From contig JAFSIV010000006.1 in assembly GCA_017439585.1 (NCBI GenBank), positions 1-61,293 on the forward strand: a DNA stretch of 61,293 bases, given 5' to 3'. Positions 1,455 to 60,978 of this stretch are shown here, piece by piece; the stretch's first letter is position 1, and each line of letters starts with the position of its first letter. Source of the stretch: Clostridia bacterium (lineage in GTDB: Bacteria; Bacillota; Clostridia; Oscillospirales; Acutalibacteraceae). Made by a program: the position numbers and the translations under genes. The notes under the pieces are model-generated. The model had not been told where the DNA came from and did not search any database. It saw nothing but the letters and a program-made list of their open reading frames with translations.

Positions 1455-1473
1455 TAAAATATTAATTTTTAGA

Positions 1474-1499
1474 GCCGTTCGTATGAACGGCTTTTTTTT
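1474..1499 (+). terminator. Intrinsic terminator of serCA
   Basis: A perfect 7-bp stem (GCCGTTC/GAACGGC) with a GTAT loop is followed by seven to eight T residues, 20 bases after the serA stop. Confidence 0.9.
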
Positions 1500-1500
1500 G

Positions 1501-1529
1501 TTGCAAAAATATAGAAAATATGTTAAAAT
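1501..1529 (+). promoter_or_regulatory. Sigma-A type promoter for the secreted esterase
   Basis: TTGCAA at 1501-1506 and TAAAAT at 1524-1529 are separated by 17 bases. The same TTGCAA -35 hexamer with 17-base spacing recurs at 6748 and 41426 in this window. The start codon follows about 85 bases downstream, leaving an AT-rich 5' UTR. Confidence 0.55.
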
Positions 1530-1612
1530 TATATCAATAAAATTTATTTGTTTTGCATTTTGCGGCGGATTATTTAAAATTTGTGAAAATTATATTTTAA
1601 CAGGGAAGTGTT

Positions 1613-4600
1613 ATGAAAATGAAAAAAATATTTCGATTTGCAATATCATCGGTTTTAACAATTTCTGTAATACTGTCAAGTTTGATTTTTGTTCAAGCAG
1701 ATGATACGATTAATGCAGGAATAGCAAGTTATAGTACAAATACTTCGCAGTTACTTGAAATAGAGTTTGCTAACACAACAACTACCTGCGGCGTGCAAAC
1801 TTTTCTTTCTTTAACTCCCGGTAAAACCTATCAGTTTGAGGCTGATTGCAAGCCTGAAAGTATTTATATAACTCCTCAGGTGCATATTTATTATAAGCAA
1901 AAAGGCAAAACTACTTATGCTAAAAAATTATATGTATCTACTACCGAGGATAATCAAATCGGAACTCATATTTCTTTTAGATTCACCCTTCCGGATGAGA
2001 CAGTTATGGAAGCTACTAATAATATCCATCTTATTCTTTCTGCCGAACGCAAAGATGTTGGTAAAGTTTATTATGGAAAAACTTCTGTTAATTTGGTTGA
2101 GAATAATGTGCTAGTTGGCGAAAATCTTGTTCCTGACCCTGATTTCACTCTTTGCCCAACTACGCTTACAACAACTAAAACAGACACATGGTCAAAAACT
2201 CATAGCACATTTAATGCTATAACAACTTCTGTAACCGATTGGTTTAATGAACCGTTGCCGATTCCTAATACTCCTAAAATGTGGGAAATTGGAAACAGAT
2301 GGCAGAATTATTGGGGTGCTATTAAACAAGAAGTTACTCTTAAAACTAATAAGTATTATAAATTTGAGATGAACTATTTGGCTATCAATGGTGCTAAAGC
2401 CTTGATTAGAGTCGGTATAAAAGCCAAAAATGCCACTTCTTACACAGAAACAGATTTGGCTAGTGTATGTTATAATTATAGTTTAACAGACACCGGTACA
2501 AAGTATGTTATAATTTTTAGACCTAAGGCCGTATATTCCGGCAAAAATTTCAGACTTATATTGGGAAGAAATGATTCTAGTCATGATAGTACTGCCGCTG
2601 CTTATTTTGCCAATGTTTCGCTTCGCGAGGATATTTCAAGTGTAAACGGCGCGGGTCAAGAGTATGGTGAAAATCTTATCTATAACGGAAGTTTCGAATA
2701 CGGTGAAATAGGAAGTATAAATAACGATAATATTGATACTCAGTTATATTGTTGGGAGCAGCTAACTGATGGTGAAACGGTTTCAACATATAAAACTAAC
2801 AAATTAAGAGAAATCCCTGAGGGTTTGTTTGATGGGTCTTTATTCAATACGGATGAGCCCAAAATGCTTCGTATTGGTGGAGCTGGTGATAGTCAAGAAG
2901 CACTTTCATTAGAGGCAAGTCTCATAGCGGGTAAAACATATCAGTTTGATTTAGACTACCGAGCTTTCGGCGGTGTTGACCCTTATATCAATATTGAAAC
3001 TTCTAATTTAGGTAGTTATAGTGTGCTTAATTCGTATGAAACAACTGTTAATAATAAGAACGGAGCACATTATTCGATTAGATTTACTATGCCAGGCAAT
3101 GCTTCAGCAGGTAATAATTTTAGACTGACTATCGGACAAAAATCACCGATTAAGAGAAATGGAACTGTTTATTTTGCAAATGCAGGGATTTATGAAGTTT
3201 CAAGCGGCAATATTGTTGGTGAAAATCTTTTCTATAACGGTGATTTTTCAAAAAGTGTTGGGGGCAAGGTTGTTCAAGGCTTTTCTGATATTTATTTCAA
3301 AGGTTGGAATCAAAAGGATGTTATGTCTTATAAAGATGTAACTGTTATGACTATTCCTGATGGTTTTTTTGAAAGCGGAAAAGACTATGCGACAGAATAT
3401 GCTTATAAATTCAAAGGCGGAGATATGTATAAACCGCAGTTTGATTTTGGATTTAAACCGAATAAAACATATCTTTTCTCTTATGATTATAACTGCGATA
3501 ATGATACCACGGTTAACGCCTATATTCAGTCGCACGATAATTCTGTTAAAGCTCAGAAAATCAGCAGAGTTTCGGATGGTAAATATACCGCAACATATAA
3601 AATTTCAACCTCTTCATATACTAAAGTTTATAGCGAATACACTTCGGCTAACGGTAATATCCGTTTTGCATTGGCAAACAATTCTTACGATAATCCTTTC
3701 TATATTTCTAATATAAAAATTTATGAGTTAATAGGCGAAGAAATTGTTGGCGAAAATTTGGTAGGCGACCTTAATCCTATTTATAGTGATACATATTATA
3801 CTTCATTAGAAAATGAGGGAGATTCAGTAGCATTTGAACTGGCAAAAAATGATTCTGGTGCTGTTGCGCAAACTGTAAATCTAGGTCATGGTTGGTATGG
3901 TAATCTTAATTATCAAAGCGTAAATAATGGTGTATATTCTTATTTAGTTAAGGTTAATGAAGATTTCTTTAATTTTTATAGTGATTCTGAAAAACTTATA
4001 ATGATAAGAAAACTTCTTTTAGGAGTTAACAATGAATATAATCCATATGCGGATAATTTGAATTTGGTATATGACCCTGATGAAAACGGTGATACTGATA
4101 TTATTGATTTAATAAGAATTAAAAAAGAAATTTTGGATAATAAATACGCTGTTGCTAATGCCGAAACAAATGGCGGTATTTATGATAAAGTAAATACCGT
4201 AAAATGCTATGGCGATAGTATAACTCAGGGTAAGGGCTACGAAAATAATCCTGAAAAAACCTATCCGGGAATGCTGAGTTCTTTCTTAGGAGAAGAATTT
4301 ACTGTTCTTAACGCCGGTGTTCCGGGGGAAGCAACATATACAATTATGTCCCGTCAGGGTGCTTTATCGTTATTCACAAATAAAGAATTTAAATTTGAAG
4401 CAGGTCAAGATACAATAGTTATAGGTGATAGAAATGATAACGGCTTTGTTACATCAACCGGAATAAATATTGACCTTATTTATTATTTAGGTAACCAAAT
4501 CTCAATAAATGATATAACTATTGAAGGTGTTAATTATACGATTTTGATTGAAGATTTTGTATGGTCGCCAACTCGTGCTTGTACAGTTAAATTAAAGCGA

Positions 4601-6685
4601 GCAGATGTTTCTTCGGCTGTTACAATACCTGCGGGAACTTCGGTTGAATTTAATAATAAAGTTACACCTGATTCATTAAATATATATTTGATGGGTGCAA
4701 ATGGTAATTATATATCTACTGATGACCTTATAGCTCAATATAAAGCAATGATAGATTATCATGGCAGTAACAACTATTTAGTTGTTATTCCTTTTACAAA
4801 TACCAATTATGATGAGAAATTCTATGAGGCTTTTGGAGATCATTGTGTAAGTTTCAGAGAGGCAGCTATAACTTACGGTTTAGAGTTTGAAGGTATTACT
4901 CCAACCTCGGCTGATAAAGCGAAAATTGCCGAAGGATTAGTTCCTCCTTCACTTTGTCTAAACAACACTTATGATGTTCATCTAAATGAAAAAGGTTATC
5001 ATTTGATGGCAACTTTATTGCATGAGAAGGGAAGGTTTATTGAATTGTTTGATAACAATGCAGAATATAAAACTGTTACTATTAATTCGAATGATATTTC
5101 AGAATATAAAATAGTAAATGAAAGTGGTCATAGTGAAGCTAGCACTACGATTAGTAATGCTATATATAAAGCGTCTGGTGTTAAAGTGGCAGAAGCTAAT
5201 ACAGTCCCTGTTGACGATAAAGTTATTCGTATTGTTCCTGATTACTGTGTGGCAGCAAATAATAGTATAATTTATGTTGACGGCAATACTCTTTATATTT
5301 CGGCATATACTGCAGATTTAATAGGTTATGCTGCGAATGCTTTTGAAGAATTGCTTAATAATAATGTTTTGTCCTTTGAAAATGGATATAAATCAACTTC
5401 AACAATTTCGGCAATATCTTACGAAACAGCTATAGCTGATGGAAAAACCTTAAAACTTATAGGTGATTCGGATAGTAACTCAATTGATTATAAGGCAGGC
5501 GATACTGCTAATATAACTGTTGCAGCTTACGCAGACGGTAATATACTTAGTGTTCCTTATTTCCATATTACAACATTTAACGAATCTAATCAGAAAACAG
5601 AAGATTATTATGTTTCAGGAAAAAGCGGTGCTTGCAAGTTAAGCTTAACCTCACAGACCGAAGGCTTTGTTTACTTTAATATTGTTGCTTGCGATAGTAA
5701 TAAACGTAAGATTGCAGATTTTAAGGAAACAGATAGTAATTATCATTTTGTTGGCAGTGTTGGTTTTGATATTGATAAAATCAAACCTTCCTCAACCAAG
5801 CCTGCTGATTTTGATGCATTTTGGAAGACTGCAACAGATGAAGTGAAAAATATGGATATTGAAATCGTTAAAATGAAATCGGTTTCAAGCAATAAAAATG
5901 GATATTTGACCTATCTTGTTGAACTTCGTTGCGGTACAGATGATTATGGAAATCCTGGCGTGGTGACCGGATATTTAACCTATCCTACTAATGCATCTGC
6001 TACTTCTAAAATCGGTTTAATGACTCAATATCAGAGTTATAGTGTATCTGTTCCTGATAAGGTATATAAAGAAAATACAGCGGTATTTTGTATATGTGCT
6101 CATAGTCTGGATATTGAAAAGTTTATTAGTGATAGCAGTTATAAATCTGATATATCTGCTAAACTTGATGGCTTTGGATTCAGAAATGTTGCAAAAGAGA
6201 ATATATATTTCTTGCAAATGATTAAACGCGATTTGTTAGCCAACAAATTTATGGTTGAATATTTTGGTGATAATGGTAATGGCTTCTGGAATAATCATGA
6301 TTTGGTTATAAAGGGAACAAGTATGGGAGGCTTGCAGAGTATTGCGGTTGCCGCTCTTCTGAAAGATGTGATCGGAATTAATCCTAGCCTTCTTGATGTT
6401 GATTTGCCTTGGTTAACTGATATTAATTCAGCTGCTGTTGGACGCAAGCCTAGTTCATGGCGACCTGCTTACAGCGTGGCGTTATCATATTATGATACTG
6501 TTCATTTTGCAACTAAAATTACATGCGATACAGATATTACTGCTGGTCTTGGCGATGCAATTTGTCCGGTTTCGGGTGTAGTTGCATTCTACAATACTCT
6601 TGATACACAAAAGCAGATTACATTTATCCAAAACACCTCACATAGCGGTGGCTGGGAAGGAACAAGGTTTACTGTGAATAATTAA
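1613..6685 (+). CDS. Secreted multidomain esterase: carbohydrate-binding repeats, dockerin-like segment, SGNH hydrolase and CE7 esterase
   Basis: A Sec signal peptide (MKMKKIFRF..., cleavage near VQA-DD) is followed by four beta-sandwich modules marked by GENL at about 169, 352, 536 and 713, spaced roughly 180 residues and resembling galactose-binding-like CBMs. One EF-hand-like dockerin half with DPDENGDTDIIDLIRIKKE lies at 821-839. An SGNH/GDSL hydrolase follows: block I GDSIT at 867-871 (Ser869), a GANG segment, and block V DVHLNEKGY at 1121-1129 (Asp1121, His1123). The C-terminal 300 residues resemble CE7 acetyl xylan esterase/cephalosporin-C deacetylase: GTSMGG nucleophile Ser1570, GLGDAICP Asp1648 and TSHSG His1677. 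The likely role is extracellular deacetylation of plant polysaccharide. It stands alone between two terminators. Exact substrates are unknown. Confidence 0.85.
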   Translation: MKMKKIFRFAISSVLTISVILSSLIFVQADDTINAGIASYSTNTSQLLEIEFANTTTTCGVQTFLSLTPGKTYQFEADCKPESIYITPQVHIYYKQKGKTTYAKKLYVSTTEDNQIGTHISFRFTLPDETVMEATNNIHLILSAERKDVGKVYYGKTSVNLVENNVLVGENLVPDPDFTLCPTTLTTTKTDTWSKTHSTFNAITTSVTDWFNEPLPIPNTPKMWEIGNRWQNYWGAIKQEVTLKTNKYYKFEMNYLAINGAKALIRVGIKAKNATSYTETDLASVCYNYSLTDTGTKYVIIFRPKAVYSGKNFRLILGRNDSSHDSTAAAYFANVSLREDISSVNGAGQEYGENLIYNGSFEYGEIGSINNDNIDTQLYCWEQLTDGETVSTYKTNKLREIPEGLFDGSLFNTDEPKMLRIGGAGDSQEALSLEASLIAGKTYQFDLDYRAFGGVDPYINIETSNLGSYSVLNSYETTVNNKNGAHYSIRFTMPGNASAGNNFRLTIGQKSPIKRNGTVYFANAGIYEVSSGNIVGENLFYNGDFSKSVGGKVVQGFSDIYFKGWNQKDVMSYKDVTVMTIPDGFFESGKDYATEYAYKFKGGDMYKPQFDFGFKPNKTYLFSYDYNCDNDTTVNAYIQSHDNSVKAQKISRVSDGKYTATYKISTSSYTKVYSEYTSANGNIRFALANNSYDNPFYISNIKIYELIGEEIVGENLVGDLNPIYSDTYYTSLENEGDSVAFELAKNDSGAVAQTVNLGHGWYGNLNYQSVNNGVYSYLVKVNEDFFNFYSDSEKLIMIRKLLLGVNNEYNPYADNLNLVYDPDENGDTDIIDLIRIKKEILDNKYAVANAETNGGIYDKVNTVKCYGDSITQGKGYENNPEKTYPGMLSSFLGEEFTVLNAGVPGEATYTIMSRQGALSLFTNKEFKFEAGQDTIVIGDRNDNGFVTSTGINIDLIYYLGNQISINDITIEGVNYTILIEDFVWSPTRACTVKLKRADVSSAVTIPAGTSVEFNNKVTPDSLNIYLMGANGNYISTDDLIAQYKAMIDYHGSNNYLVVIPFTNTNYDEKFYEAFGDHCVSFREAAITYGLEFEGITPTSADKAKIAEGLVPPSLCLNNTYDVHLNEKGYHLMATLLHEKGRFIELFDNNAEYKTVTINSNDISEYKIVNESGHSEASTTISNAIYKASGVKVAEANTVPVDDKVIRIVPDYCVAANNSIIYVDGNTLYISAYTADLIGYAANAFEELLNNNVLSFENGYKSTSTISAISYETAIADGKTLKLIGDSDSNSIDYKAGDTANITVAAYADGNILSVPYFHITTFNESNQKTEDYYVSGKSGACKLSLTSQTEGFVYFNIVACDSNKRKIADFKETDSNYHFVGSVGFDIDKIKPSSTKPADFDAFWKTATDEVKNMDIEIVKMKSVSSNKNGYLTYLVELRCGTDDYGNPGVVTGYLTYPTNASATSKIGLMTQYQSYSVSVPDKVYKENTAVFCICAHSLDIEKFISDSSYKSDISAKLDGFGFRNVAKENIYFLQMIKRDLLANKFMVEYFGDNGNGFWNNHDLVIKGTSMGGLQSIAVAALLKDVIGINPSLLDVDLPWLTDINSAAVGRKPSSWRPAYSVALSYYDTVHFATKITCDTDITAGLGDAICPVSGVVAFYNTLDTQKQITFIQNTSHSGGWEGTRFTVNN

Positions 6686-6711
6686 TAATCTGTTCTAAAA
6701 TTAAAATCGAG

Positions 6712-6746
6712 AAGGCGGCAAGGTTTAATTTCCTTGTCGCCTTTTT
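6712..6746 (+). terminator. Intrinsic terminator of the esterase gene
   Basis: A 10-bp stem (GGCGGCAAGG with CCTTGTCGCC, one G-U pair) with an 8-base AT-rich loop is followed by a T run. Confidence 0.88.
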
Positions 6747-51372: not shown

Positions 51373-51816
51373 ATGAAAATTAAAAAGGAAGAATATTCAA
51401 AACTCGTTAAAAAGGCTTCGCCGCCGTCTCCTAAAATAAAGGATTTTATCTTTGCCTTTGTTGTTGGCGGTTTGATTTGCGTGATAGGGGAGCTTTTATT
51501 CGAATTATACTTATATTTGGGACTTTTTGAAAAACAGGTAAAAATGGCAGTTCCCGTAACCTTAATTTTTATAGCAGCACTTCTGACAGGACTTAAAATT
51601 TTTGATAAAATTGCAAAGCGTGCGGGTGCGGGAACCTTAGTGCCGATAACAGGCTTTGCTAATGCGGTTGTTTCTCCTGCAATAGAGTTTAAAAAAGAGG
51701 GGTTTGTATTAGGCGTTGGTGCTAATATGTTCAAAATAGCAGGTCCTGTGATTGTGTATGGTACGGTAGCGAGTGTGGTGTATGGAATAATTTATTGGAT
51801 AACAACAATATTGTAA
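51373..51816 (+). CDS. spoVAC: Stage V sporulation protein AC
   Basis: This 147-residue protein has three to four membrane segments and the strongly conserved AGAGTLVPITGFANAV, SPAIEFKKEGFVLGVGANMF and IAGPVIVYGTVASVVYGIIY blocks. SpoVAC is a channel protein for dipicolinic acid uptake into and release from the spore. spoVAD and spoVAE normally follow; here they do not. Instead four partial copies of this gene's 3' end recur over the next 9 kb, separating unrelated gene modules, so its 3' end appears to be an insertion hotspot. The intact gene is the donor-like reference for those copies. Confidence 0.95.
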   Translation: MKIKKEEYSKLVKKASPPSPKIKDFIFAFVVGGLICVIGELLFELYLYLGLFEKQVKMAVPVTLIFIAALLTGLKIFDKIAKRAGAGTLVPITGFANAVVSPAIEFKKEGFVLGVGANMFKIAGPVIVYGTVASVVYGIIYWITTIL

Positions 51817-51820
51817 CACA

Positions 51821-51849
51821 AAAGGCTTGACCAAATCGGTCAAGCCTTT
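51821..51849. terminator. Terminator at the left edge of island module A
   Basis: A 12-bp perfect stem AAAGGCTTGACC/GGTCAAGCCTTT starts five bases after the spoVAC stop. It can end spoVAC on one strand and the rhamnosidase gene on the other. The same 12-bp arms recur at 56288-56315. Confidence 0.88.
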
Positions 51850-51851
51850 CA

Positions 51852-53729
51852 TTATAGATACAAAATCGGTATGGCGCTCCAACCGTGGCAAAGGCTACCT
51901 GCTTTACCAAATGCATCGGCGCCTTCGATTACTTCCCAGACAGATGTGGCATCATTGTCGAGCATCACCTTGTATGTATCACAGATTTCTTGGATAATAC
52001 ATTGATGATATTTAGAATCGACTTTAAGCAATGCGTCATATTTAAAGCATTTCATACTTAAAGAGCATTCTAAAAGCTTGTTACAAGATAAATTTTCAGC
52101 AATAGCATAGCTTTCCTCCGGCGTAGTAAGCCCTGCAAGAATAGCAACGGCATTTCCCAGCTCTGTGAATTCCTTGCCTTCTTTCGACATTGAAAAAAGC
52201 CCGTTTTTAGAATCAAAAAAGTTTCGCTTAATATTCGCTTTAATCGCATCCATCATGTCCTGATAGTTAAATGATTTATGGATTCTGTCTGATATGGTTT
52301 TAAAATTTTCAAGTGCAATTATAAATAAGCAATTGATCATAAGATCGGATCGGGTATCCGTTGATCCGATTTTTTCGTCCATATAGGCAGACCAGTCATA
52401 AAAATTCCAATACCCACTATCGCGAAAAGTATACAACAATCCGTCTTGAATCTGCTTTTCAAATACTCGAATAATTTTTAAAAGTTTTTCATAGACCTCG
52501 GTTGCCAAGGATAAATCATTTGTGTTATCAAGATATTCTTTTATCGCTGTGAAATAATGTAGAGAAAACGAGGGGATTGCAAGCTCGGTACCACTGGGAT
52601 AGGTGATAGACAAAAGGTCATCTTCTCTGGTATCTTGACTTATGAGGATTAAGGCTGCACGGGCATAATCACGGTTCCCGTTTTTGAACGCTTTATAACC
52701 GCACAGCATTTGATTTCTGGAATCAAATGTATAAAAGGATTGCTCACGCCAAGGTGTATCAACATATCGTTCCAGCATACACAATTTTAATGTATTAACA
52801 CTTAAATCATATATTTTTTGTTTTAGAGGATCAGCAAAATTTCTGGGTATAACCTCGGCAGGATATGCTTGCGGAATGATTCCGATATAATCCAATTTGA
52901 TTGGAGCTTCACAAAAAACCTCTAAATATCGGCAACCGAGCCTTAGCATATAGTTGATATAGTTATTCTCGCCTTTTTTTGCTATATATTCAAAACTGAA
53001 ATCTCTGTTTCCTATTTTTCTGCGCACATTTCCGTCAATAATATGTTCTCCCCAGCAGACAGTGATTTTTTGAGAAACATCTGTATAAAAATTTAGAATA
53101 GGAAGACCGACCGTTTCTTCGCCCAGATCTAACAGAAAATAATCACCTGTGTTTTTTAAAACGGTAATTTTCTTTTCTTTCAATAATTGTGATTTCGCAA
53201 TTGGACGCGGGTACATTTCACATTTTTTATCCACAACAAAACTATTGTGAAAAGCAGCGTCACCCGATTTTGTTTCATCAAACAAAAAACTTTGCCCCAT
53301 TTGTGAAGTTATGATTTTTTTGTACCCACCTTTGTAGTTCGGATTCTCGCGCGATAGCGTTTCTTCGCAACTTCTGCAAATTGATTTTCCGTCACATTCT
53401 ATTTCATAAAAAAGACCGGCTTTAGCAGGTTTATATCGGGAAGATGCTATCCCTAAATGCCAAACAGTTATAAGGATTGTATTTTCACCGATCACAAGAT
53501 GGTCGGTGATATCAATGCTGTCATAAATTTTATAATGTTCAAAATCACCATATTGATTGGAGCTAACGTAACCGCCATTCACAAACAGGGTATAATCGCC
53601 ATCGCATGAAATATGGCAAATTACTTTTCCTCCGTTATAGTTTAATTCATCCATAAAATCGCCGTATGTATCAGGATTTGCAAATTCTGTATACCAAATC
53701 CAAGAGGTATTAGTAAAGGATTTTTTCAT
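51852..53729 (-). CDS. GH78-like alpha-L-rhamnosidase, cytosolic
   Basis: I start at the ATG at 53729, downstream of the promoter at 53764-53792, giving 625 residues without a signal peptide; longer frames begin before the likely transcript start. An N-terminal beta-sandwich (about 1-270) precedes an (alpha/alpha)6 barrel with ERYVDTPWREQSFY (Glu329 region), SVWEVIEG (Glu599) and a C-terminal SLCHGWSAIPI, as in family 78 six-hairpin rhamnosidases. It would release L-rhamnose from imported glycosides. An L-rhamnose mutarotase lies 2.6 kb away in the same island. Linkage specificity is unknown. Confidence 0.78.
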   Translation of the reverse strand: MKKSFTNTSWIWYTEFANPDTYGDFMDELNYNGGKVICHISCDGDYTLFVNGGYVSSNQYGDFEHYKIYDSIDITDHLVIGENTILITVWHLGIASSRYKPAKAGLFYEIECDGKSICRSCEETLSRENPNYKGGYKKIITSQMGQSFLFDETKSGDAAFHNSFVVDKKCEMYPRPIAKSQLLKEKKITVLKNTGDYFLLDLGEETVGLPILNFYTDVSQKITVCWGEHIIDGNVRRKIGNRDFSFEYIAKKGENNYINYMLRLGCRYLEVFCEAPIKLDYIGIIPQAYPAEVIPRNFADPLKQKIYDLSVNTLKLCMLERYVDTPWREQSFYTFDSRNQMLCGYKAFKNGNRDYARAALILISQDTREDDLLSITYPSGTELAIPSFSLHYFTAIKEYLDNTNDLSLATEVYEKLLKIIRVFEKQIQDGLLYTFRDSGYWNFYDWSAYMDEKIGSTDTRSDLMINCLFIIALENFKTISDRIHKSFNYQDMMDAIKANIKRNFFDSKNGLFSMSKEGKEFTELGNAVAILAGLTTPEESYAIAENLSCNKLLECSLSMKCFKYDALLKVDSKYHQCIIQEICDTYKVMLDNDATSVWEVIEGADAFGKAGSLCHGWSAIPILYL

Positions 53730-53763
53730 ATCATTAACACCATTTCTGTCATTGATTTTGTAC

Positions 53764-53792
53764 ATTATACCACACCGCCGATTTGATGTAAA
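53764..53792 (-). promoter_or_regulatory. Promoter of the rhamnosidase gene, part of the shared junction
   Basis: On the reverse strand TTTACA (53792-53787) and TATAAT (53769-53764) are 17 bases apart. The -35 side belongs to the segment shared with the junction at 56680-56730. Confidence 0.65.
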
Positions 53793-53806
53793 TATTTTTT
53801 GCAAAC

Positions 53807-53952
53807 TAATGGGTCCTACTTGACCACAAGCAGAGGGTTGGATTTTAGGACTCGGTGCTAAAATGTTTACAATAACAGGCTCTGTGATTGTTTATGTTAC
53901 GGTTGCGAACGTGGTGTACGGGATTATTTATTTGGTATGCAGTATGGTATAA
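53807..53952 (+). pseudogene. spoVAC 3'-end remnant, copy 1
   Basis: From GAG at 53833 to TAA at 53952, 40 codons match the spoVAC C-terminus without a gap or stop: GLGAKMFTITGSVIVYVTVA corresponds to GVGANMFKIAGPVIVYGTVA. By my count about 75 of the last 99 bases agree. Upstream (53807-53832) homology continues with small indels. The match stops at the stop codon. It has no start and cannot be a functional gene. Confidence 0.88.
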
Positions 53953-53958
53953 TAATAG

Positions 53959-53995
53959 GACTGCCTCACTTGCTTGTGTGGCAGTCTTTCTTTTA
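53959..53995 (+). terminator. Terminator at the left edge of island module B
   Basis: GACTGCC/GGCAGTC stem with an inner CAC/GTG pair, then a T-rich tract, seven bases after the copy 1 stop codon. Confidence 0.75.
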
Positions 53996-54000
53996 TACCA

Positions 54001-54849
54001 TTATTTCATGGGTGTAAAACACACTTTTTTCAAATCTTCGTCTAATATTTGCAATGTAGCTGGCATTAGTAACCTTCCCCGACCATCTAAGCTCCAAACA
54101 ATTTTCTTTTGATTGTCAACTTCAAAGAACTGTATACCCTCATCAAGATGACCGTGCCCCATCCAGTTTGTGAATACAAGATTACCGTTTGATAATAATT
54201 GAATACCCAACAACCAACGGATACTTATTTGAGGAATATCGCTATTAGTAAGATCCCAGATTTCTTTACCGTTTTCATCAAGCTCGTAAGCACCTGACAT
54301 ACATGAATATACAATATGCCCGTTTGGTAGAACAACAAGACCAAAAGCATCTGGGCGAATATCAAACTCTGTAATGATTTCTCCGTTTATGGATAATTTT
54401 CGTATTTTATTAATTCCCGGCTGAACCAAAAAATAAGCATTGCCAATTTTTCTGGCTAATCGCATTCCCTCGTGCGAGGGACCTTCGTAGGGTATATTTA
54501 TTTGGCTGACTTTATTTCCGTTGGAATCAATTTCTAAAAGTTGTGGTTCTCCCAAAAGACCTAATAAAATATTACCGTTTTCAAGAGGTTGACAACTAAA
54601 TATCTCTTTCCCAGCGAGATAACGCATTGCTACTGAGCCGTCGCTGTTTAGGATTGTAACTCCGGCGGTGTCAATGCCGCTGTTGTGAGCATATAGGATT
54701 TTTCCGTTAGGAAGTACCCATAAATCAAACGCACCGACAATGTCACATATTTCTTGCGTAATTTTACCGTCTTTATCAATAAATATCAACTTGTTTGTGG
54801 CTGTATCACTACAAACAAAACTATGTCGTTCATTACCTGTAATTTTCAT
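54001..54849 (-). CDS. Cytosolic beta-propeller-like protein of unknown function
   Basis: This 282-residue protein has no signal peptide or membrane segment. Repeated blade motifs of the type LPNGKILYAH, LENGNILLG, LPNGHIVYSC and LSNGNLVFTNW, about 45-50 residues apart, each with an Asn-Gly turn followed by hydrophobic strands, suggest a six-bladed propeller of the PQQ/NHL-like class. It contains GHGH and HEG motifs that could bind metal or sugar. It follows the iron alcohol dehydrogenase by 15 bases on the same strand, so the two are an operon. Role unknown; possibly a lyase or epimerase of deoxysugars. Confidence 0.7.
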   Translation of the reverse strand: MKITGNERHSFVCSDTATNKLIFIDKDGKITQEICDIVGAFDLWVLPNGKILYAHNSGIDTAGVTILNSDGSVAMRYLAGKEIFSCQPLENGNILLGLLGEPQLLEIDSNGNKVSQINIPYEGPSHEGMRLARKIGNAYFLVQPGINKIRKLSINGEIITEFDIRPDAFGLVVLPNGHIVYSCMSGAYELDENGKEIWDLTNSDIPQISIRWLLGIQLLSNGNLVFTNWMGHGHLDEGIQFFEVDNQKKIVWSLDGRGRLLMPATLQILDEDLKKVCFTPMK

Positions 54850-54864
54850 AACTGCTCCTCCCGA

Positions 54865-56085
54865 TCATATTGCCATCTGTAAAATTGTTATGATTCCTTC
54901 GCGGCCAATTTTAGGTATTGACGGTAACATGCCGTCAGCATCACAACCATGAGCAACGATTTCATCAGCGATTCTTTCTATATCAGAACTGGGAATATTT
55001 GCGTCAGATAAAGTATGAGGCACTCCAACCTCATCCATAAACTGTACAAAGCAATCAACAGTTTTTTCTGCGATTTCGCGATTGTTTTGTCCATCGCGTT
55101 TCAAACCAAATACATTTTCTCCAAGTAAAGCAAAACGAGCCTCACGTTCTGAGTTAAGAGTGCAGGTATAACGGAAATACGAATCAATAAAGATTGCTAG
55201 TGTTACACCGTGCGGTGTGTTGTAAAGTGCTGAAAGAACATGTCCCATTTGGTGCATAGGAGTGGTTGCATTAAGTCCAGACTGTAAGTATCCGTTCCAA
55301 GCAAGTGAGGCAGCCCACTGCATATTAGCTCTATGGTCAACGTTTAACGGATCTTTTATAATAGCTTTCAATTCACTTATAATCGTTACGAGGAGTCCTT
55401 CGTGCAATCTATCCTGCAAAGGTGAATTTTGATCGCCGTTGAGATATGCTTCAAGTATATGTGACATTGCGTCTACCGCACCTACTGCAGTTTGATATAC
55501 AGGAAGCGTACAAGTAAGAGCAGGATCAATTATTGAAACAGTTGGATAAAGGATTGGTGCGGATACATATGCTTTCTCCTGAGTTACCTCATTGGTAGCC
55601 ACAGCGGTACAATTCGTTTCGCTGCTTGTGGCAGGAAGGGTGGGCACCATAACGGTTGGCAGACTTTTTTCCGGAGGGATTGAAACGGAACAATCGTGAC
55701 GGGACACAAACATATTCCACGGTTCACCCTGGAATAGCACGCCTGCTGCAATTACTTTGGTAGAATCCATAACACTGCCGCCGCCTACACCTATACAGAA
55801 ATCAACTTCATTTTTTCTGCAAATTTCAATCGCTTCTTGTATGTGGCAAAGCAAGGGATTTGCTTTGATACGGTAAAATGTAATGATTTCAATTCCGATA
55901 TCGACTAATTTGGTTTCAATATCAGAAAGCAATGATTCTAAAAAAGTAATATCGTCATAGGAAATAATAAGCGCCTTTTTACCAAGGCTTTTTACATGTT
56001 TTGCGATATTTTTAGATTCTCCGGTTCCAAAAACAACACGAACGGGATTATAAAGCTCAAAATTTTGCAAAGTTATACCCTCCAA
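54865..56085 (-). CDS. Iron-containing alcohol dehydrogenase
   Basis: This 406-residue group III dehydrogenase has a GTGES N-terminal turn, NAD motif GVGGGSVMDSTKVIAAG and metal-ligand residues in GAVDAMSHILEAYL, HQMGHVLSALYNTPHG. It probably reduces an aldehyde such as lactaldehyde or propionaldehyde to the alcohol; in rhamnose fermentation this gives 1,2-propanediol or propanol. The nearest relatives by feel are BDH/YqhD-like enzymes rather than FucO. GGAGGGT precedes the ATG and it has its own consensus promoter. Confidence 0.9.
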   Translation of the reverse strand: MEGITLQNFELYNPVRVVFGTGESKNIAKHVKSLGKKALIISYDDITFLESLLSDIETKLVDIGIEIITFYRIKANPLLCHIQEAIEICRKNEVDFCIGVGGGSVMDSTKVIAAGVLFQGEPWNMFVSRHDCSVSIPPEKSLPTVMVPTLPATSSETNCTAVATNEVTQEKAYVSAPILYPTVSIIDPALTCTLPVYQTAVGAVDAMSHILEAYLNGDQNSPLQDRLHEGLLVTIISELKAIIKDPLNVDHRANMQWAASLAWNGYLQSGLNATTPMHQMGHVLSALYNTPHGVTLAIFIDSYFRYTCTLNSEREARFALLGENVFGLKRDGQNNREIAEKTVDCFVQFMDEVGVPHTLSDANIPSSDIERIADEIVAHGCDADGMLPSIPKIGREGIITILQMAI

Positions 56086-56105
56086 TTAATTATTTTACAA
56101 AGGAT

Positions 56106-56134
56106 AATATATTCTAACTTTCCGGTGCTGTCAA
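56106..56134 (-). promoter_or_regulatory. Promoter of the alcohol dehydrogenase operon
   Basis: On the reverse strand TTGACA (56134-56129) and TATATT (56111-56106), 17 bases apart. Confidence 0.75.
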
Positions 56135-56198
56135 TGGATAATACTATTACGTTTTGGTATTATATTATCATTGTGTTACTTGCAGTGTATCCTTTTTC

Positions 56199-56243
56199 GG
56201 TACAGTAGCAAGTGCGGTTATATAGTGTTATTTATTGAAAATC
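56199..56243 (+). pseudogene. spoVAC 3'-end remnant, copy 2 (short)
   Basis: GGT ACA GTA GCA AGT GCG GTT ATA encodes GTVASAVI, matching GTVASVVY of SpoVAC, and base similarity continues through the following TTATTTATTG (spoVAC ATAATTTATTG). A stop interrupts the frame. Homology is limited to about 45 bases. Confidence 0.65.
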
Positions 56244-56285
56244 GACTCTGATTTAATATATTAACTGCATACTCTGCGTTTCGAA

Positions 56286-56316
56286 CAAAAGGCTTGACCT
56301 TTCGGTCAAGCCTTTG
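56286..56316. terminator. Terminator at the left edge of island module C
   Basis: AAAGGCTTGACC/GGTCAAGCCTTT with loop TTTC. The 12-bp arms are identical to those after intact spoVAC at 51821-51849; only the loop differs. Confidence 0.88.
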
Positions 56317-56319
56317 TTG

Positions 56320-56637
56320 TTAATCAAAAGAAAATACCTGTTTAAGTAATGGCTGTGCGCCTGTTTTGGGATCTTTTTCCATAATTAGAATATCTGCCAT
56401 ATATTCATCCCAACGCGCAACAACCGGACTGGAATTTTGCACCTTGGCGGCAAAATCTATGCCCTTTTTACATTCGTAATATCCAAACAGCTCGTTTCCA
56501 ACATTCCAAATGGTGTAGTTGCAGATTCCGGCTTCTCTGAGAAGTGCTTTCATATCATCGGGGAGAGCATCATGTCTGCGTTTATATTCCTCCAGACAAC
56601 CCTCCTTAATTGTTGCTTTCCATGCATATTTTTCCAT
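56320..56637 (-). CDS. rhaM: L-rhamnose mutarotase
   Basis: This 105-residue protein is the normal size for the family, with KRRHDALPDDMKALL (catalytic His), ICNYTIWNVGNELFGYYEC and ARWDEYMADI. It interconverts the alpha and beta anomers of L-rhamnose to supply rhamnose isomerase; neither rhaA, rhaB nor rhaD is present in the window. It is the only gene of its module, framed by a shared terminator and a shared promoter. AAGGAG precedes the ATG. Confidence 0.92.
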   Translation of the reverse strand: MEKYAWKATIKEGCLEEYKRRHDALPDDMKALLREAGICNYTIWNVGNELFGYYECKKGIDFAAKVQNSSPVVARWDEYMADILIMEKDPKTGAQPLLKQVFSFD

Positions 56638-56656
56638 TGTATCAACTCCTTTTATT

Positions 56657-56685
56657 ATATTATCACACCACAGCTTAAATGTAAA
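56657..56685 (-). promoter_or_regulatory. Promoter of rhaM, part of the shared junction
   Basis: On the reverse strand TTTACA (56685-56680) and TAATAT (56662-56657), 17 bases apart, laid out as at the rhamnosidase promoter. Confidence 0.6.
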
Positions 56686-56765
56686 TATTTTTACAAACTA
56701 ATGCTTCCTAAGTTGCCATAATCAGAGGGCTTATCTTAAAATTTGTAGCTAATATGTTAAAAATC
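56680..56765 (+). pseudogene. spoVAC 3'-end remnant, copy 3, with shared junction lead
   Basis: 56680-56730 repeats 53787-53838: 13 identical bases, a short difference, 10 identical bases, then 18 of 26. It continues into spoVAC-like sequence with a frameshift; VANMLKI matches GANMFKI of SpoVAC. The copy breaks off near 56765, before the GTVAS block. Confidence 0.7.
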
Positions 56766-56801
56766 GAAAAATTTTAAAAAGCAAACGGCAAAGAGTAAAA
56801 T

Positions 56802-57596
56802 TTACCCTAAGCCGTTCTTAAATATTTCACGATATTTGCTTGGTGACATTTGATAGTGCTTTTTAAACATCTTGTTAAAATATATTGAGTCGTTAATGCC
56901 TACTTCTGATGCAATTTGGTTAATCGACTTTGTCGTTCCTTGCAGTAGCTCTGCTGCTACGGATAAACGATAATTGTTTAAAAAACAAATTGGGGAAACA
57001 CCCATTTGTTTCTTAAAGACTACAAATAGATGCGAAGCAGAAAGATGGGTTTGCTTTGCAATATCTTCAACCGAAATTTTTTCGCCATAGTTATCTTTAA
57101 TATAACGTAACGCTTGCTCTAGGTATGGAGGTAATGATTGCTCTTTTTCATTTGCAACCAAAGAAAGAAGTTTAACTATTTCGTAATAACAAATATATTC
57201 GTCAAAGGTATTGTCCGCACAAAATAACTTATCAAAAACCGAATTCATTTTTGCCTTGACATTTTCCGGCAAAATGGTTGGTAAATTGAATTTTTCATCA
57301 AAGTTATAAATATCGTTGATTTTGATTTTTATATAAACCCAACGGCAAGTTATATTTTTGCTTATGCTATCCATGTTGTGAATAATGCGTTGTTGTACAT
57401 TTGATGGGGCAATAAAAAAACCACCACTTCCGGTATTGTGTGTTATACCATTGTTGAGTTGAATATCATAAGAGCCTTCAACTGATTGTGCAACTGACAA
57501 ATATGGCAATATTTTTGTATGACATATACCATCATGCGCGTTAGAAGTAAAACCGTTTTTATGGATATACTCTATATGAATCTTTTCGATATTCAT
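56802..57596 (-). CDS. AraC-family transcriptional regulator
   Basis: This 264-residue regulator has an N-terminal cupin-like sugar-sensing domain (about 1-140, SYDIQLNNG, GGFFIAPSNVQQR) and a C-terminal double helix-turn-helix (about 160-260, ISVEDIAKQTHLSASHLFVV, FKKQMGVSPICFLN, INQIASEVGI, FNKMFKKHYQMSPSKYR). It is divergent from the glycyl radical enzyme, with 93 bases between, so it most likely controls that operon in response to its substrate. GAGGTGAG precedes the ATG. Confidence 0.93.
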   Translation of the reverse strand: MNIEKIHIEYIHKNGFTSNAHDGICHTKILPYLSVAQSVEGSYDIQLNNGITHNTGSGGFFIAPSNVQQRIIHNMDSISKNITCRWVYIKIKINDIYNFDEKFNLPTILPENVKAKMNSVFDKLFCADNTFDEYICYYEIVKLLSLVANEKEQSLPPYLEQALRYIKDNYGEKISVEDIAKQTHLSASHLFVVFKKQMGVSPICFLNNYRLSVAAELLQGTTKSINQIASEVGINDSIYFNKMFKKHYQMSPSKYREIFKNGLG

Positions 57597-57611
57597 TTTC
57601 TCACCTCAATA

Positions 57612-57671
57612 GTATTATACTAAATAACAGTATTATTTTCAATGTTTTTTTATAGTTTTATATGCTATAAT
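57612..57671. promoter_or_regulatory. Divergent promoters of the AraC regulator and the glycyl radical enzyme
   Basis: The regulator's promoter on the reverse strand is TTGAAA (57642-57637) and TATAAT (57619-57614), spacing 17. For the enzyme, TATAAT at 57666-57671 has no good -35, as expected for an activator-dependent promoter. A GTATTAT direct repeat at 57612 and 57630, 18 bases apart, could be operator half-sites. Confidence 0.6.
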
Positions 57672-57689
57672 ATTACCGAGGTGACAGTT

Positions 57690-59822
57690 ATGAAATTTTT
57701 TGCTGTTAATGGGAAAAGGCCGGTAAGATTAAGTGAAGAAACAAGAAAATTTGCTTTTGACTCTTTAAATCATAAATACGGATTAGAAACTTGGGGTACG
57801 CCCGCTGTTTTGATGGATGATTATGAGGGATTTGAGTATTTAACTCCGCTTCAAAAATACGATGCCGCCATAGAGCGCATTGCAAAAACAGCCCCTATTC
57901 GTATTTGTGAAGGGGAAAGGTTAAGCGGTGCGGCAACCTTGGGGCTTGCCATAGGGCATCAAATTCCCGCCATGTTTAATAGTGAACTAGGTATTTTTGG
58001 TTCCGTTAGCCATTTGACGATTGATTTTGAAACAGTGATCAAAAAAGGTATTAATCACATTCAAAAACAGGCTGAAGAAAGTATGAAAAAGTATAAAGGA
58101 ACGGAGAAAGAGCAATTCGTTTTAAGCTGCTTGCATTGCCTTAATTGTATGAAAATATGGCACGAGCGATATTTGAACGAATTGAAAAATAAATCGGAAT
58201 ACAGAAAAAACTTTGAGAATCTGCAAAATGTACCTTTTGAACCTGCTGCAAACTTTTATGAGGCAGTGCAAAGTATATGGTTTACGTTTGCGTTTGTCCG
58301 TCTTTGCGGAAATTGGCCCGGAATAGGCAGAATCGATTGGTTGTTAGGCGAATATTTAGAAAAAGACCTTGCCGACGGTACGCTTACACTTGACGAGGCA
58401 AGAGAGATATTGGCACACTTTTTCATCAAAGGTTGTGAATGGGTACGTGGCGGTGATTACGGTAGCGGTGATGCACAGCATTTTCAAAATATCGTTCTTG
58501 CCGGTGTGGATGAAAACGGAAAAGAAGTGACAAATGTAGTTACTTATCTTGTCTTGGATATATTGGAGGAATTAGGTATCAGCGATTTCCCGACCACAGT
58601 TCGCATCAATAAAAATACCGATAAGAAACTATTGACACGTGTAGCCGAAGTAATACGTTTAGGCGGCGGTGTTGTTGCTGTATATAACGAGGATTTGATA
58701 ATAGACTCGCTTACTGATTACGGATATGAGCTGAAAGAGGCGAGAAAATTTGCAAACGATGGTTGTTGGGAAATACAAATTCCGGGCAAAACGCGATTTG
58801 GATATATTCCGTTTGACGCTTTGCAGATTTTTCAGCAAATAACGCTTGATAATTACAGCGAAAACGCTTGCTTTTTAGATTTTAATTCCTTGTACAATGT
58901 ATTTATTGATGGATTGAGAAACAAGGTGACAGAAATTTTTAGCGAAGTGAATAAGCGTAATTTTGTATATACTGCATTGCCGACAAAGGATTGGAAATGG
59001 GCGTCTGATATGCCGTGCACAGTTGTTTCACTTTTTGAAGAGGGCTGTATTGAAAATGGGTGCTCCTACTTCGAGGGAGGACCGATTTATAACATTCTTT
59101 CACCACATATCGGCGGTTTACCTGATGTGGTTAACAGCTTGTATGCTATTAAAAAGTTGGTTTTTGATGAGCATAAGGTATCATTTGCTGAAATGATGCG
59201 ATTATTGAAGAATAACTGGGAAGGTAATGAGACACTACGTCAATATACTCTTAATAAATATTCGTATTTTGGAAATGACAATGATGAGGTAGATGTTATT
59301 GCAAAAAACATTATAAAAGATTTTTCTGATATTTGTGATAATATAATAAGTAGATATAAAACACCGGCAGGGATTAGCACCTTTGGCAGACAGTTAGAAT
59401 GGTCGCCTTATCGTTTTGCAACACCATATGGCAAAAAAGCACACGATATATTATCGGGTAATTTTTCTCCAACTCCCGGCACCGACAAAGAAGGTGCAAC
59501 AGCTATTATCAAATCGTATTGCAAGGCGGATTTAAAACGCACCGTATCGGGCGCGGCTTTGGATATTAAATTGCTTCCAGCGGCAGTAAATGGTGAAAAT
59601 GGTATTGAAGCCATAAGTTCCTTGATTAAAGGATTTGTTACACTCGGCGGACATTTTATGCAATTGGATATTGCCGATACAGAATTACTGAAAAAAGCAC
59701 AGGAGCATCCGGAAGAATACCAAAATCTATCGGTGCGCGTGTCCGGCTGGAATGCTCGCTTTGTCACGCTAAATCGGGAATGGCAAGATATGATTATTGC
59801 CCAAACAGGAAGTGGTTTTTGA
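57690..59822 (+). CDS. Glycyl radical enzyme, uncharacterised dehydratase/lyase-like group
   Basis: I start at the ATG after GAGGTGA, giving 710 residues. The pyruvate formate-lyase-like barrel carries the thiyl cysteine in NDGCWEIQIPGKT (Cys359, Glu361) and the radical site RVSGWNARF near the C-terminus (Gly686). A Glu two residues after the Cys is typical of diol dehydratases and related lyases and excludes pyruvate formate-lyase; DGCWE differs from the GCVE of glycerol dehydratase, choline lyase and 4-hydroxyphenylacetate decarboxylase. RVSGWNARF also has Trp-Asn where most have Tyr-Ser. The substrate is unknown; island context suggests a diol or deoxysugar derivative. Oxygen-sensitive, cytosolic. 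Confidence 0.9.
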   Translation: MKFFAVNGKRPVRLSEETRKFAFDSLNHKYGLETWGTPAVLMDDYEGFEYLTPLQKYDAAIERIAKTAPIRICEGERLSGAATLGLAIGHQIPAMFNSELGIFGSVSHLTIDFETVIKKGINHIQKQAEESMKKYKGTEKEQFVLSCLHCLNCMKIWHERYLNELKNKSEYRKNFENLQNVPFEPAANFYEAVQSIWFTFAFVRLCGNWPGIGRIDWLLGEYLEKDLADGTLTLDEAREILAHFFIKGCEWVRGGDYGSGDAQHFQNIVLAGVDENGKEVTNVVTYLVLDILEELGISDFPTTVRINKNTDKKLLTRVAEVIRLGGGVVAVYNEDLIIDSLTDYGYELKEARKFANDGCWEIQIPGKTRFGYIPFDALQIFQQITLDNYSENACFLDFNSLYNVFIDGLRNKVTEIFSEVNKRNFVYTALPTKDWKWASDMPCTVVSLFEEGCIENGCSYFEGGPIYNILSPHIGGLPDVVNSLYAIKKLVFDEHKVSFAEMMRLLKNNWEGNETLRQYTLNKYSYFGNDNDEVDVIAKNIIKDFSDICDNIISRYKTPAGISTFGRQLEWSPYRFATPYGKKAHDILSGNFSPTPGTDKEGATAIIKSYCKADLKRTVSGAALDIKLLPAAVNGENGIEAISSLIKGFVTLGGHFMQLDIADTELLKKAQEHPEEYQNLSVRVSGWNARFVTLNREWQDMIIAQTGSGF

Positions 59823-60709
59823 TGAAAGTTGCAGATATACAACGTTTTTGTATGCATGACGGTTCGGGCATCAGAACGACCGTATTCCTCAAAGGGTGTC
59901 CCCTCCGTTGTGTATGGTGTCACAATCCCGAAACTCAAAACAATATAAAAGAACTCTTGTATTATCAGAATAAGTGTATTGGATGCGGTGCTTGTGCGGT
60001 ATGCAGTCAAAAAGCACATGAGTTCTCTACATTTCACACCTTCAATCGCAATTTATGTGTAGGTTGCGGAATCTGTGCAGCCGAATGTCCTGTGGATGCC
60101 TTGGAAATTATCGGCAAAGATTATACAACACAAGAACTTTTTGAAATCATAGAGAAAGACCGAGCTTTTTACGGTCAGAATGGCGGTGTAACCGTTTCAG
60201 GCGGCGAACCTTTTATGCAGTACAAGGAGACCTTCGAACTTTTGAAGCTTTGTAAGGAAAACGGCATACACACTACGGTTGATACCTGCGGATATTTCAA
60301 TTCTGATATTTTAGAACAAGCAGTATCATTAACCGATTTGTTTTTGTGGGATATTAAAGACACTGATTCCCAAAGGCATAAAAAGTATACCGGAGTTTCC
60401 AATGAAAAGATAGTAAGTAACCTAAAATTTGCTGATTCTATGGGAGCTAAAACCCGAATTCGTTGTATTTTAATAAATGGTGTGAACACCAACGAACAAC
60501 ACTATAACAATGTTTTTGACCTTGTATCAAAGTTGAAAAATTGTGAGGGTGTTGAGCTTATACCATACCATGCTTTTGGTGGTGGTAAATCTGAAGCTTT
60601 GGGCAAGAAAAATTCTGGCAACAACAGTTGGATTCCGTCTGAAAGGCAAATTATTGAAGCAAAGAACTATTTGCTTCAAAGAGGAATATACGTTTTTAAT
60701 GGGTGTTAA
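59822..60709 (+). CDS. Glycyl radical enzyme activase (radical SAM)
   Basis: I start at the ATG overlapping the enzyme's stop by one base (TGATG), giving 295 residues. The radical SAM cluster motif is GCPLRCVWCHNPE (near residues 26-38), followed by two ferredoxin-type clusters (CIGCGACAVC and CVGCGICAAECP), VSGGEP and DTCGYF. It abstracts a hydrogen to install the radical on Gly686 of the adjacent enzyme. Its last codons run into the spoVAC copy 4 junction. Confidence 0.95.
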   Translation: MKVADIQRFCMHDGSGIRTTVFLKGCPLRCVWCHNPETQNNIKELLYYQNKCIGCGACAVCSQKAHEFSTFHTFNRNLCVGCGICAAECPVDALEIIGKDYTTQELFEIIEKDRAFYGQNGGVTVSGGEPFMQYKETFELLKLCKENGIHTTVDTCGYFNSDILEQAVSLTDLFLWDIKDTDSQRHKKYTGVSNEKIVSNLKFADSMGAKTRIRCILINGVNTNEQHYNNVFDLVSKLKNCEGVELIPYHAFGGGKSEALGKKNSGNNSWIPSERQIIEAKNYLLQRGIYVFNGC

Positions 60710-60842
60710 GTTCGTACAAGCGGAGGGCTAGGTTTTAGGCCAAGGCGCGAAAAGGTTTAAAATCACAGGACCTGTTATCGCCTACGGCACGGTTGCGAGT
60801 GTGATTTATTGGATTATTTATTGGATATGTACAATTCTATAA
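60698..60842 (+). pseudogene. spoVAC 3'-end remnant, copy 4
   Basis: From GAG at 60723 to TAA at 60842, 40 codons align with the spoVAC C-terminus without indels; GTVASVIYWIIYW matches GTVASVVYGIIYW, and one TAG lies near the front. About 73 of the last 99 bases agree, and many changes are in third codon positions, as if it diverged while still coding. The lead shares AATGGGT and ACAAGCGGAGGG with copy 1. Confidence 0.9.
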
Positions 60843-60912
60843 TGTAGGGGCGGCAATCTGCCGCCCCAAAAAAACGCAAAATAAAAACGGGCAGCAGGTT
60901 GCCGCCCCTACA
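60843..60912. repeat. Double palindromic REP/MITE-like element
   Basis: A 70-base element is bounded by a perfect 14-bp inverted repeat, TGTAGGGGCGGCAA and TTGCCGCCCCTACA. Inside, GGGGCGGCA/TGCCGCCCC makes a 9-bp hairpin and a second, weaker hairpin follows an A-rich spacer. It touches the stop codon of spoVAC copy 4. Similar GGCGGCA palindromes are common between genes in gut Clostridia; one core is also at 27152-27170. Confidence 0.82.
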
Positions 60913-60978
60913 AAGACTATCTGACCTCAGCACGAAATTGCAGGGGACAGCATCCTTGGCTTCCCGAACAATAAATAT

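Follow-up and report, generated by a model that had tools for sequence, protein, structure and literature searches.

The 61,293-bp stretch of DNA analysed here (the window; contig JAFSIV010000006.1 of the Clostridia bacterium assembly GCA_017439585.1, family Acutalibacteraceae) carries an intact spoVAC gene followed by an array of truncated spoVAC 3′ ends with other genes between them. We find that this spoVAC cassette array is real and widespread among relatives, and that its repeats are the attachment scars of spoVAC-targeting elements encoding three tandem serine recombinases (triplet elements). Codon 107 of spoVAC serves as an insertion site for these elements, and a short conserved sequence in front of the truncated ends, which we call the arm, is their right end.

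Downstream of spoVAC, the window contains four truncated copies of the gene's 3′ end (remnants), two of them strong and two decayed. In a tblastn search of SpoVAC against the window, copy 1 (53827-53949, 58.5% identity, E 2.3e-10) and copy 4 (60717-60839, 73.2% identity, E 5.5e-14) each match SpoVAC codons 107-147 over 41 codons, ungapped and reaching the stop codon, as an earlier sequence-only reading of this DNA had described. At the DNA level, copy 1 is 73.8% identical to spoVAC (130 columns, two gap positions) and copy 4 is 72.5% identical (120 columns, zero gaps). A search of the window's own genome returned only spoVAC, copies 1 and 4, and a paralogue of 31% identity that is probably spoVAE. 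The two short pieces are weak by themselves (56197-56246, single-sequence nhmmer E 0.85; 56727-56764, blastn E 0.088). A profile built from 60 spoVAC ends lifts the first to E 0.0025 over 56193-56253, and both pieces beat 500 of 500 shuffles when scored against 43 spoVAC ends. Scanning both strands of the window for the arm gave scores of at least 25/32 only at 53806 (27), 56698 (27) and 60696 (25), directly in front of copies 1, 3 and 4, with a next-best score of 21. With the profile, the shuffles and the arm supporting the weak pieces, the four copies that the sequence-only reading had listed are real, and chance similarity, which it had named as one of the ways it could fail, does not explain them.

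The same breakpoint and arm are shared by relatives. In congeners we retrieved 60 loci consisting of spoVAC and the DNA that follows it, making 61 with the window (below, L denotes fetched loci and G genomes; the named loci are largely contigs of metagenome-assembled genomes, MAGs). When the genus was searched, spoVAC or a relative turned up in at least 69 of 70 genomes, along with many additional matches covering only about codons 107-146. At least one remnant is present at 17 of the 61 loci, which together hold 29 profile-called remnants plus the window's weak piece. The conserved arm of ~30 bp stands in front of the remnants, which begin at codon 107. Counted among the 17 is L068, with a longer spoVAC 3′ duplicate (3266-3408) that has a different start and is without the arm. 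Among genome contigs, two or more spoVAC-end profile matches were found at 19 loci within the best 80 of 145 relatives; many of the relatives in this contig search are MAGs of ruminant and other gut Clostridia.

The arm motif occurs in 14 of 70 congeners, and its reversed control in none (0 of 70). For the most frequent arm type, A, a stretch of 18 bases was found in 24 of 398 family genomes and 17 of 135 genera (reversed control, 3 genomes), and a remnant stands right behind the motif in 21 of the 30 loci from this family search, some of which overlap, representing 12 genera by hand count. We read 75 distinct arm-spoVAC junctions and could assign the arm type in 63 of them (A 41, B2 12, B1 10), leaving 12 others. 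A decaying tandem duplication of spoVAC, chance similarity or assembly error could in principle produce such repeats: the loci are largely MAG contigs, in which repeats can mislead assembly, and the L068 duplicate does not begin at codon 107. However, the same breakpoint and arm recur in separately assembled genomes of at least 12 genera, above the reversed controls, and the orientation of the cassettes is fixed. We therefore regard this explanation as extremely improbable, and reject tandem duplication or chance on the shared breakpoint and the reversed-pattern controls.

The elements behind the repeats were found in viral contigs. Searching these contigs with the SpoVAC C-terminus yielded four loci, three of which (L315, L316 and L317) carry three tandem recombinase genes of 535-570 aa, then an arm of the same or a similar kind, then spoVAC from codon 107 onward. 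In L317, the locus scanned with Pfam, all three proteins contain Resolvase and Recombinase domains, with a zinc ribbon in R1 and R2 and none in R3 at E<=0.001. The end of the L316 element includes 31 bp identical to the window at 53807, within arm 1, and in L315 the triplet is followed by a remnant, then by other genes, then by another remnant. Two genomes repeat the arrangement next to spoVAD: G205 has a triplet, a partly conserved arm (ACTTGACACAAGCAGA), spoVAC codons 107-143 and spoVAD, and G558, from another family, has a triplet whose first gene runs off the contig, followed by these 16 bases (ACTTGACACAAGCAGA) again, codons 107-147 and spoVAD. A distant triplet in G100 is placed in spoVT. 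Because triplet elements end in the arm joined to codon 107, the repeats are attachment-site scars, in keeping with the earlier suggestion that they are the footprint of a site-specific attachment site in spoVAC; the elements use the same codon and the same or a similar arm.

Further searches frame these elements. A DUF6870 protein of 86-87 aa (L317:510-770) precedes the triplet in L315, L317 and G205. The spoVT triplet (L329:4530-10260), near the spoVT start, is 45-48%, 35-36% and 34-36% identical to the three spoVAC-element proteins. An exact search of viral contigs with three arm patterns gave no match. The spoVAC-bearing records of a phage collection (6/7) and of plasmids (2/18) held no triplet relative at E<=1e-5; those in the phage collection look by eye like ordinary chromosomal spoVAC neighbourhoods.

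We consider it probable that triplet elements founded the scars, that spoVAC was afterwards restored, and that the cargo spread mainly by homologous recombination. Elements with three tandem serine recombinases would insert at a GA-containing core in spoVAC codon 107, so that the right end of the element, with the arm TAATGGGTCCTA..TTGAC..ACAAGCAGA or a variant of it, joins the displaced spoVAC 3′ end. The arm would then correspond to a P half-site of the integrase. In an ancestor, spoVAC would later have been made whole, mainly by homologous recombination, and most of the element lost, leaving cargo, arm and displaced spoVAC end, in that order, downstream of the gene. Repeated rounds would build an array in which the newest unit adjoins the gene, and many units would have turned into small expression cassettes made of a shared terminator, usually one antisense gene, a leftward promoter and the arm. 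A founding role of spoVAC-targeting triplet elements is well supported, and the order of founding events given here is the one that we think may have taken place.

To describe the cassettes, we used loci in which spoVAC is intact and one or more remnants were called, removing second views of the same genome by hand. The window contributes two cassettes, its weak copies not being called, and genes were open reading frames (ORFs) of at least 70 aa taken longest first. The resulting 63 cassettes in 43 loci (window included) have a median length of 962 bases (range 278-6,744). Single-gene cassettes make up 48 of the 63, and in 46 of these 48 the gene is antisense to spoVAC. The 105 cassette ORFs form 74 clusters, 54 of them singletons. 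A 42-base right-end consensus (>=32/42) occurs 45 times in 996,686 bases with both strands counted, in a single orientation throughout; 40 of the 45 occurrences adjoin a called remnant, and one of the other five belongs to the window's weak copy. Judged by eye, this consensus resembles a sigma-A-like promoter reading leftward. The cassettes may be expressed and useful. They are shared between species and genera, and a given cassette may adjoin spoVAC in one genome but lie further inside the array in another (L220/L236, 85%; L210/L211, 89.5%; L144/L221, 82%). In L056, a shared cassette body has its right border in the promoter and the arm is absent.

How the cassettes move was examined through their spoVAC ends and borders. 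Remnants are closer to the host's own spoVAC (mean about 77%) than to the genes of other genomes (64%), and many therefore look like displaced host spoVAC ends. The own gene ranks first of 151-152 for 18 of 63 remnants (two duplicate rows dropped), the window's two copies being weaker cases (ranks 3 and 29). Exact runs of at least 30 nt occur in 20 of 63 comparisons of a gene with its own remnants, versus 22 of 2,646 with other genomes' genes. The excess of own identity is 11-12% close to the breakpoint and shrinks to 0.6% by the stop codon (61 remnants in 43 loci, two low-identity rows left out). In five recently shared pairs (body mostly 90-100%), no left border lies at the core: they range from about 50-75 bases past the breakpoint in L135/L172 (by windows) and L157/L236 to the terminator that follows the stop codon in L071/L075 and L056/L157. 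The right borders of L071/L075 and L210/L211 end at the core. This pattern fits a left border made by homologous recombination or gene conversion and a right border that is a site-specific scar. The linkage of a spoVAC end to its cassette expected from a pure integrase model was looked for and not found; in seven cassette pairs, the spoVAC ends are 70-83% alike and the bodies 69-94% alike. Scanning the fetched loci for motifs gave no recombinase in any cassette. The suggestion of the sequence-only reading that the copies came with cargo from relatives is not supported as it stands, and its picture of a site-specific element is not borne out by cassettes without a recombinase in the motif scan and with left borders off the breakpoint. 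We favour homologous recombination, acting mainly in spoVAC ends and cassette ends, as the way in which cassettes would move at present.

Mobile integrons likewise gather small gene cassettes at one docking site. Here, however, no IntI-type enzyme was seen (in the motif scan no cassette yielded a tyrosine recombinase), and the spoVAC cassettes carry a promoter and are mostly antisense to the docking gene. In an integron-like alternative, circles made of spoVAC end, terminator, gene, promoter and arm would enter and leave at codon 107 through the action in trans of a spoVAC-specific serine integrase, and the ragged left borders would reflect later gene conversion of spoVAC with its own remnant. 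The two right borders at the core speak for this possibility, as does the finding of one cassette both first and internal. So does the rhaM unit of the window: to its left stands the later part of a spoVAC end and to its right the first part, the order that a circle opened within such an end would leave; the whole unit is missing between the alcohol dehydrogenase (ADH) and AraC genes in L070. These swapped halves and this absence are suggestive of circles only, since the two half remnants around rhaM may overlap (nt 28-44), in which case the permutation is not clean. Against the alternative stand the lack of a cassette recombinase in the motif scan, the left borders of the five recently shared pairs off the core, and the scarcity of recombinases in two array-bearing genomes: in G016, where one of four remnants is partial, there are two XerC/D-sized genes and serine matches of 201 and 149 aa, and at E<=0.001 G318 yields a single tyrosine recombinase and none of the serine type. 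Moreover, the cassette junction corresponds to an attR-like P-B′ site, and serine integrases reportedly act on no pairing but attP x attB unless a directionality factor is present (PMC3783163). On balance we judge the integron-like alternative unlikely. Its boldest form is slightly less doubtful, though tentative: spoVAC would be an integron-like platform without an integron integrase, at which single-gene circles, each bearing its own promoter and a serine-integrase half-site and crossing genera of gut Clostridia, dock at codon 107 with spoVAC-specific triplets acting in trans, the coding half-site present in every unit rebuilding spoVAC at each docking so that it is ready for the next.

That a tyrosine recombinase moves the cassettes, be it a spoVAC-specific integrase or the host XerC/D, appears very unlikely. 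Transfer RNA genes and pdif modules are places of tyrosine-recombinase movement, at least one XerC/D-sized protein is present in each of the 13 genomes searched, and in G016 and G318 no other tyrosine recombinase was found (E<=0.001). However, the elements joined at codon 107 encode serine recombinases and the cassettes contain no tyrosine recombinase by motif scan. Other candidates were rejected. Pairs of tyrosine recombinases upstream of spoVAC in G012 and G044 have neighbourhoods that look like unrelated elements, a downstream integrase in L137 lies outside the array, and a hairpin or attC reading of the arm was set aside once triplet elements with the same end had been found.

The only left junction that we saw is that of G021 (L099:1-2600), where spoVAC breaks off at codon 107 and foreign genes come next. 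The reverse complement of this left end agrees with the arm at 15-17 of 29 positions for three B-type variants and at 16/28 and 13/28 for two others. Across the five variants, with the core in register, the likeness has shuffle p values of 0.0005-0.043, in a register chosen post hoc; a slice starting further in gives p 0.93-1.0. Triplet elements are expected to interrupt their target gene and to leave a direct repeat of 2-8 bp. The junction is compatible with a GA core, and the element of G021 is not tied to a triplet. The G021 left end fits an attP of inverted arms around GA and an element that would split spoVAC. This junction, which may or may not belong to the same element, truncates spoVAC, and the 5′ part of spoVAC was not found in G205; both differ from the earlier expectation that the element regenerates the gene.

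Several observations weigh against attachment scars founded by triplets. We searched genomes for proteins related to the middle recombinase, scoring at most three candidates per genome in the family and order searches; a triplet was found in 0 of 70 congeners (E<=1e-100), in 2 of 398 family genomes (E<=1e-110), one being G100 with its spoVT insertion, and in 1 of 394 order genomes (E<=1e-130). The proposed founder is therefore rare beside the arrays. G021 has no triplet at E<=1e-100. The arms of G205 and G558 share only the core-proximal part (ACTTGACACAAGCAGA), the left end of the element was seen in neither genome, and no conjugation domain was named among the eight G205 proteins scanned, the element being incomplete. 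No remnant could be called at 9 of the 30 motif loci, and the L056 cassette has no arm at its right border. Finally, the conserved promoter is a cassette trait that was not seen by eye in five element ends, so that scars by themselves leave the promoter unexplained.

The arrays replace the native junction of spoVAC with spoVAD, which in many Clostridia starts a few tens of bases 3′ of spoVAC. Among 141 spoVAC loci, 107 have no called remnant (L155 is tallied here although it carries a partial one) and 34 have at least one. In the 107, the gap to spoVAD is below 60 bases at 52 loci, 60-1,000 at 6 and above 4,000 at 7, and spoVAD was not seen at 42. Once five contigs entered twice are dropped, the native junction is present at 50 of 102 remnant-free loci, compared with 0 of 34 loci with a called remnant, where the gap exceeds 4,000 at 6 and spoVAD was not seen on the available stretch at 28. 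Relatives thus have either empty junctions or different modules at this position, as had been anticipated. In the window, whose contig stops at 61,293, spoVAD was not seen 3′ of spoVAC. At six loci (L072, L073, L082, L084, L086 and L091), inspection by eye places a convergent reductase-like gene, not spoVAD, facing spoVAC, a different rearrangement of the junction.

The features of the window are collected in Table 1, and the cassette contents agree with those first read from the window. Inverted repeats similar to the one directly 3′ of spoVAC are found at this position in many relatives. Behind the last remnant lies another inverted repeat, GGGGCGGCA..TGCCGCCCC (60843-60920), and the contig end (61097-61293) holds what looks by eye like a fragment of an IS200-type transposase.

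Table 1. Features of the spoVAC array in the window, in order of position
Feature	Position	Strand	Basis
Intact spoVAC, docking gene	51373..51816	+	147-aa open frame; TIGR02838 E 1.8e-55; breakpoint at codon 107
Terminator-like inverted repeat GGCTTGACC..GGTCAAGCC directly 3′ of spoVAC	51820..51850	.	sequence reading
Cassette 1 cargo, alpha-L-rhamnosidase-like protein	51852..53804	-	PF17389 E 4.8e-21
Conserved cassette right-end promoter (putative), reads leftward	53763..53805	-	TTTACA / TATAAT hexamers in consensus, by eye
Arm 1, proposed P half-site of spoVAC-targeting element	53806..53837	+	27/32 consensus match
Remnant 1, spoVAC codons 107-stop	53831..53952	+	tblastn E 2.3e-10
Cassette 2 cargo, Mala_s_1-like propeller protein	54001..54849	-	PF22701 E 1.4e-09
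Cassette 2 cargo, iron-containing alcohol dehydrogenase (Fe-ADH)	54865..56085	-	PF00465 E 1.2e-36
Decayed remnant, only later part of spoVAC end	56193..56253	+	profile nhmmer E 0.0025
Terminator-like inverted repeat 3′ of decayed remnant	56285..56322	.	blastn self-match to spoVAC terminator
Cassette 3 cargo, L-rhamnose mutarotase RhaM	56320..56637	-	PF05336 E 6.8e-23
Arm 2, proposed P half-site	56698..56729	+	27/32
Decayed remnant, only first part of spoVAC end	56725..56765	+	blastn E 0.088; preceded by arm
Cassette 4 cargo, AraC-family regulator	56802..57596	-	PF12833 E 1.9e-21
Cassette 4 cargo, glycyl radical enzyme	57642..59822	+	PF02901 E 6.6e-90, PF01228 E 1.9e-23
Cassette 4 cargo, radical SAM activase-like protein	59780..60709	+	PF04055 E 3.2e-15
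Arm 3, proposed P half-site	60696..60727	+	25/32
Remnant 4, spoVAC codons 107-stop, single in-frame TAG	60717..60842	+	tblastn E 5.5e-14

We compared the arrays with known systems. No report of spoVAC as an integrase target or attachment site was found in the open-access papers searched; the spoVAC locus did not appear among the titles and abstract starts listed for triplets, sporulation-gene integration and accretion, and PMC6907783, from its excerpt, is not about spoVAC as an integration target. Integrative and conjugative elements (ICEs) of Streptococcus with serine-integrase triplets have reported targets in mutT, traG and hsdM (PMC4701971). They share with the elements described here three adjacent, like-oriented large serine recombinases near the element end and insertion inside a protein gene (PMC4701971). 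Such genes are present in L315-L317, G205, G100 and G558 (first gene cut) and not in the window array; the targets here are spoVAC and, in G100, spoVT, arrays are found without a recombinase, and the window spoVAC is intact. The skin and gin elements are serine-recombinase elements within the sporulation genes sigK and gerE, gin splitting gerE and having three recombinase genes (PMC5595907). Elements of this kind interrupt a gene that is put back together during sporulation. The target here is spoVAC instead, and in the window it is an intact, uninterrupted frame.

The nearest precedent for the array itself is the tandem ssrA islands of Dehalococcoides, whose units are bounded by repeats of a gene 3′ end; they involve a serine recombinase, and 15 of 31 are without an integration module and possibly cis-mobilizable (PMC3146451). 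Those repeats are 20 bp of tmRNA within 100 kb, whereas the spoVAC repeats are coding ends of ~120 bp in at least 12 genera (PMC3146451 for the former), and the spoVAC cassettes are mostly single-gene units of ~1 kb with one orientation and a shared promoter. Decayed cis-mobilizable elements (CIMEs) are flanked by att sites, have no integration or transfer genes, and can accrete in tandem at one site (PMC5704250). The spoVAC cassettes have the arm and a spoVAC end on the right and no recombinase by motif scan; their left borders look homologous, and the cargo behaves like a shuffled cassette pool.

If this account is correct, a sporulation gene would be a hot spot at which small cassettes, mostly sharing one orientation and promoter, are collected and swapped over at least 12 genera of gut Clostridia. 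The arrays would be linked to triplets of serine recombinases directed at genes of sporulation, namely spoVAC and, in one relative, spoVT. The analysis would also supply a catalogue of recombinases specific for spoVAC, with their attachment sites, and the arm together with codon 107 would provide a simple marker for the discovery of cargo. It also raises the question of whether intact triplet elements, by splitting spoVAC, may shut off or time spore formation.

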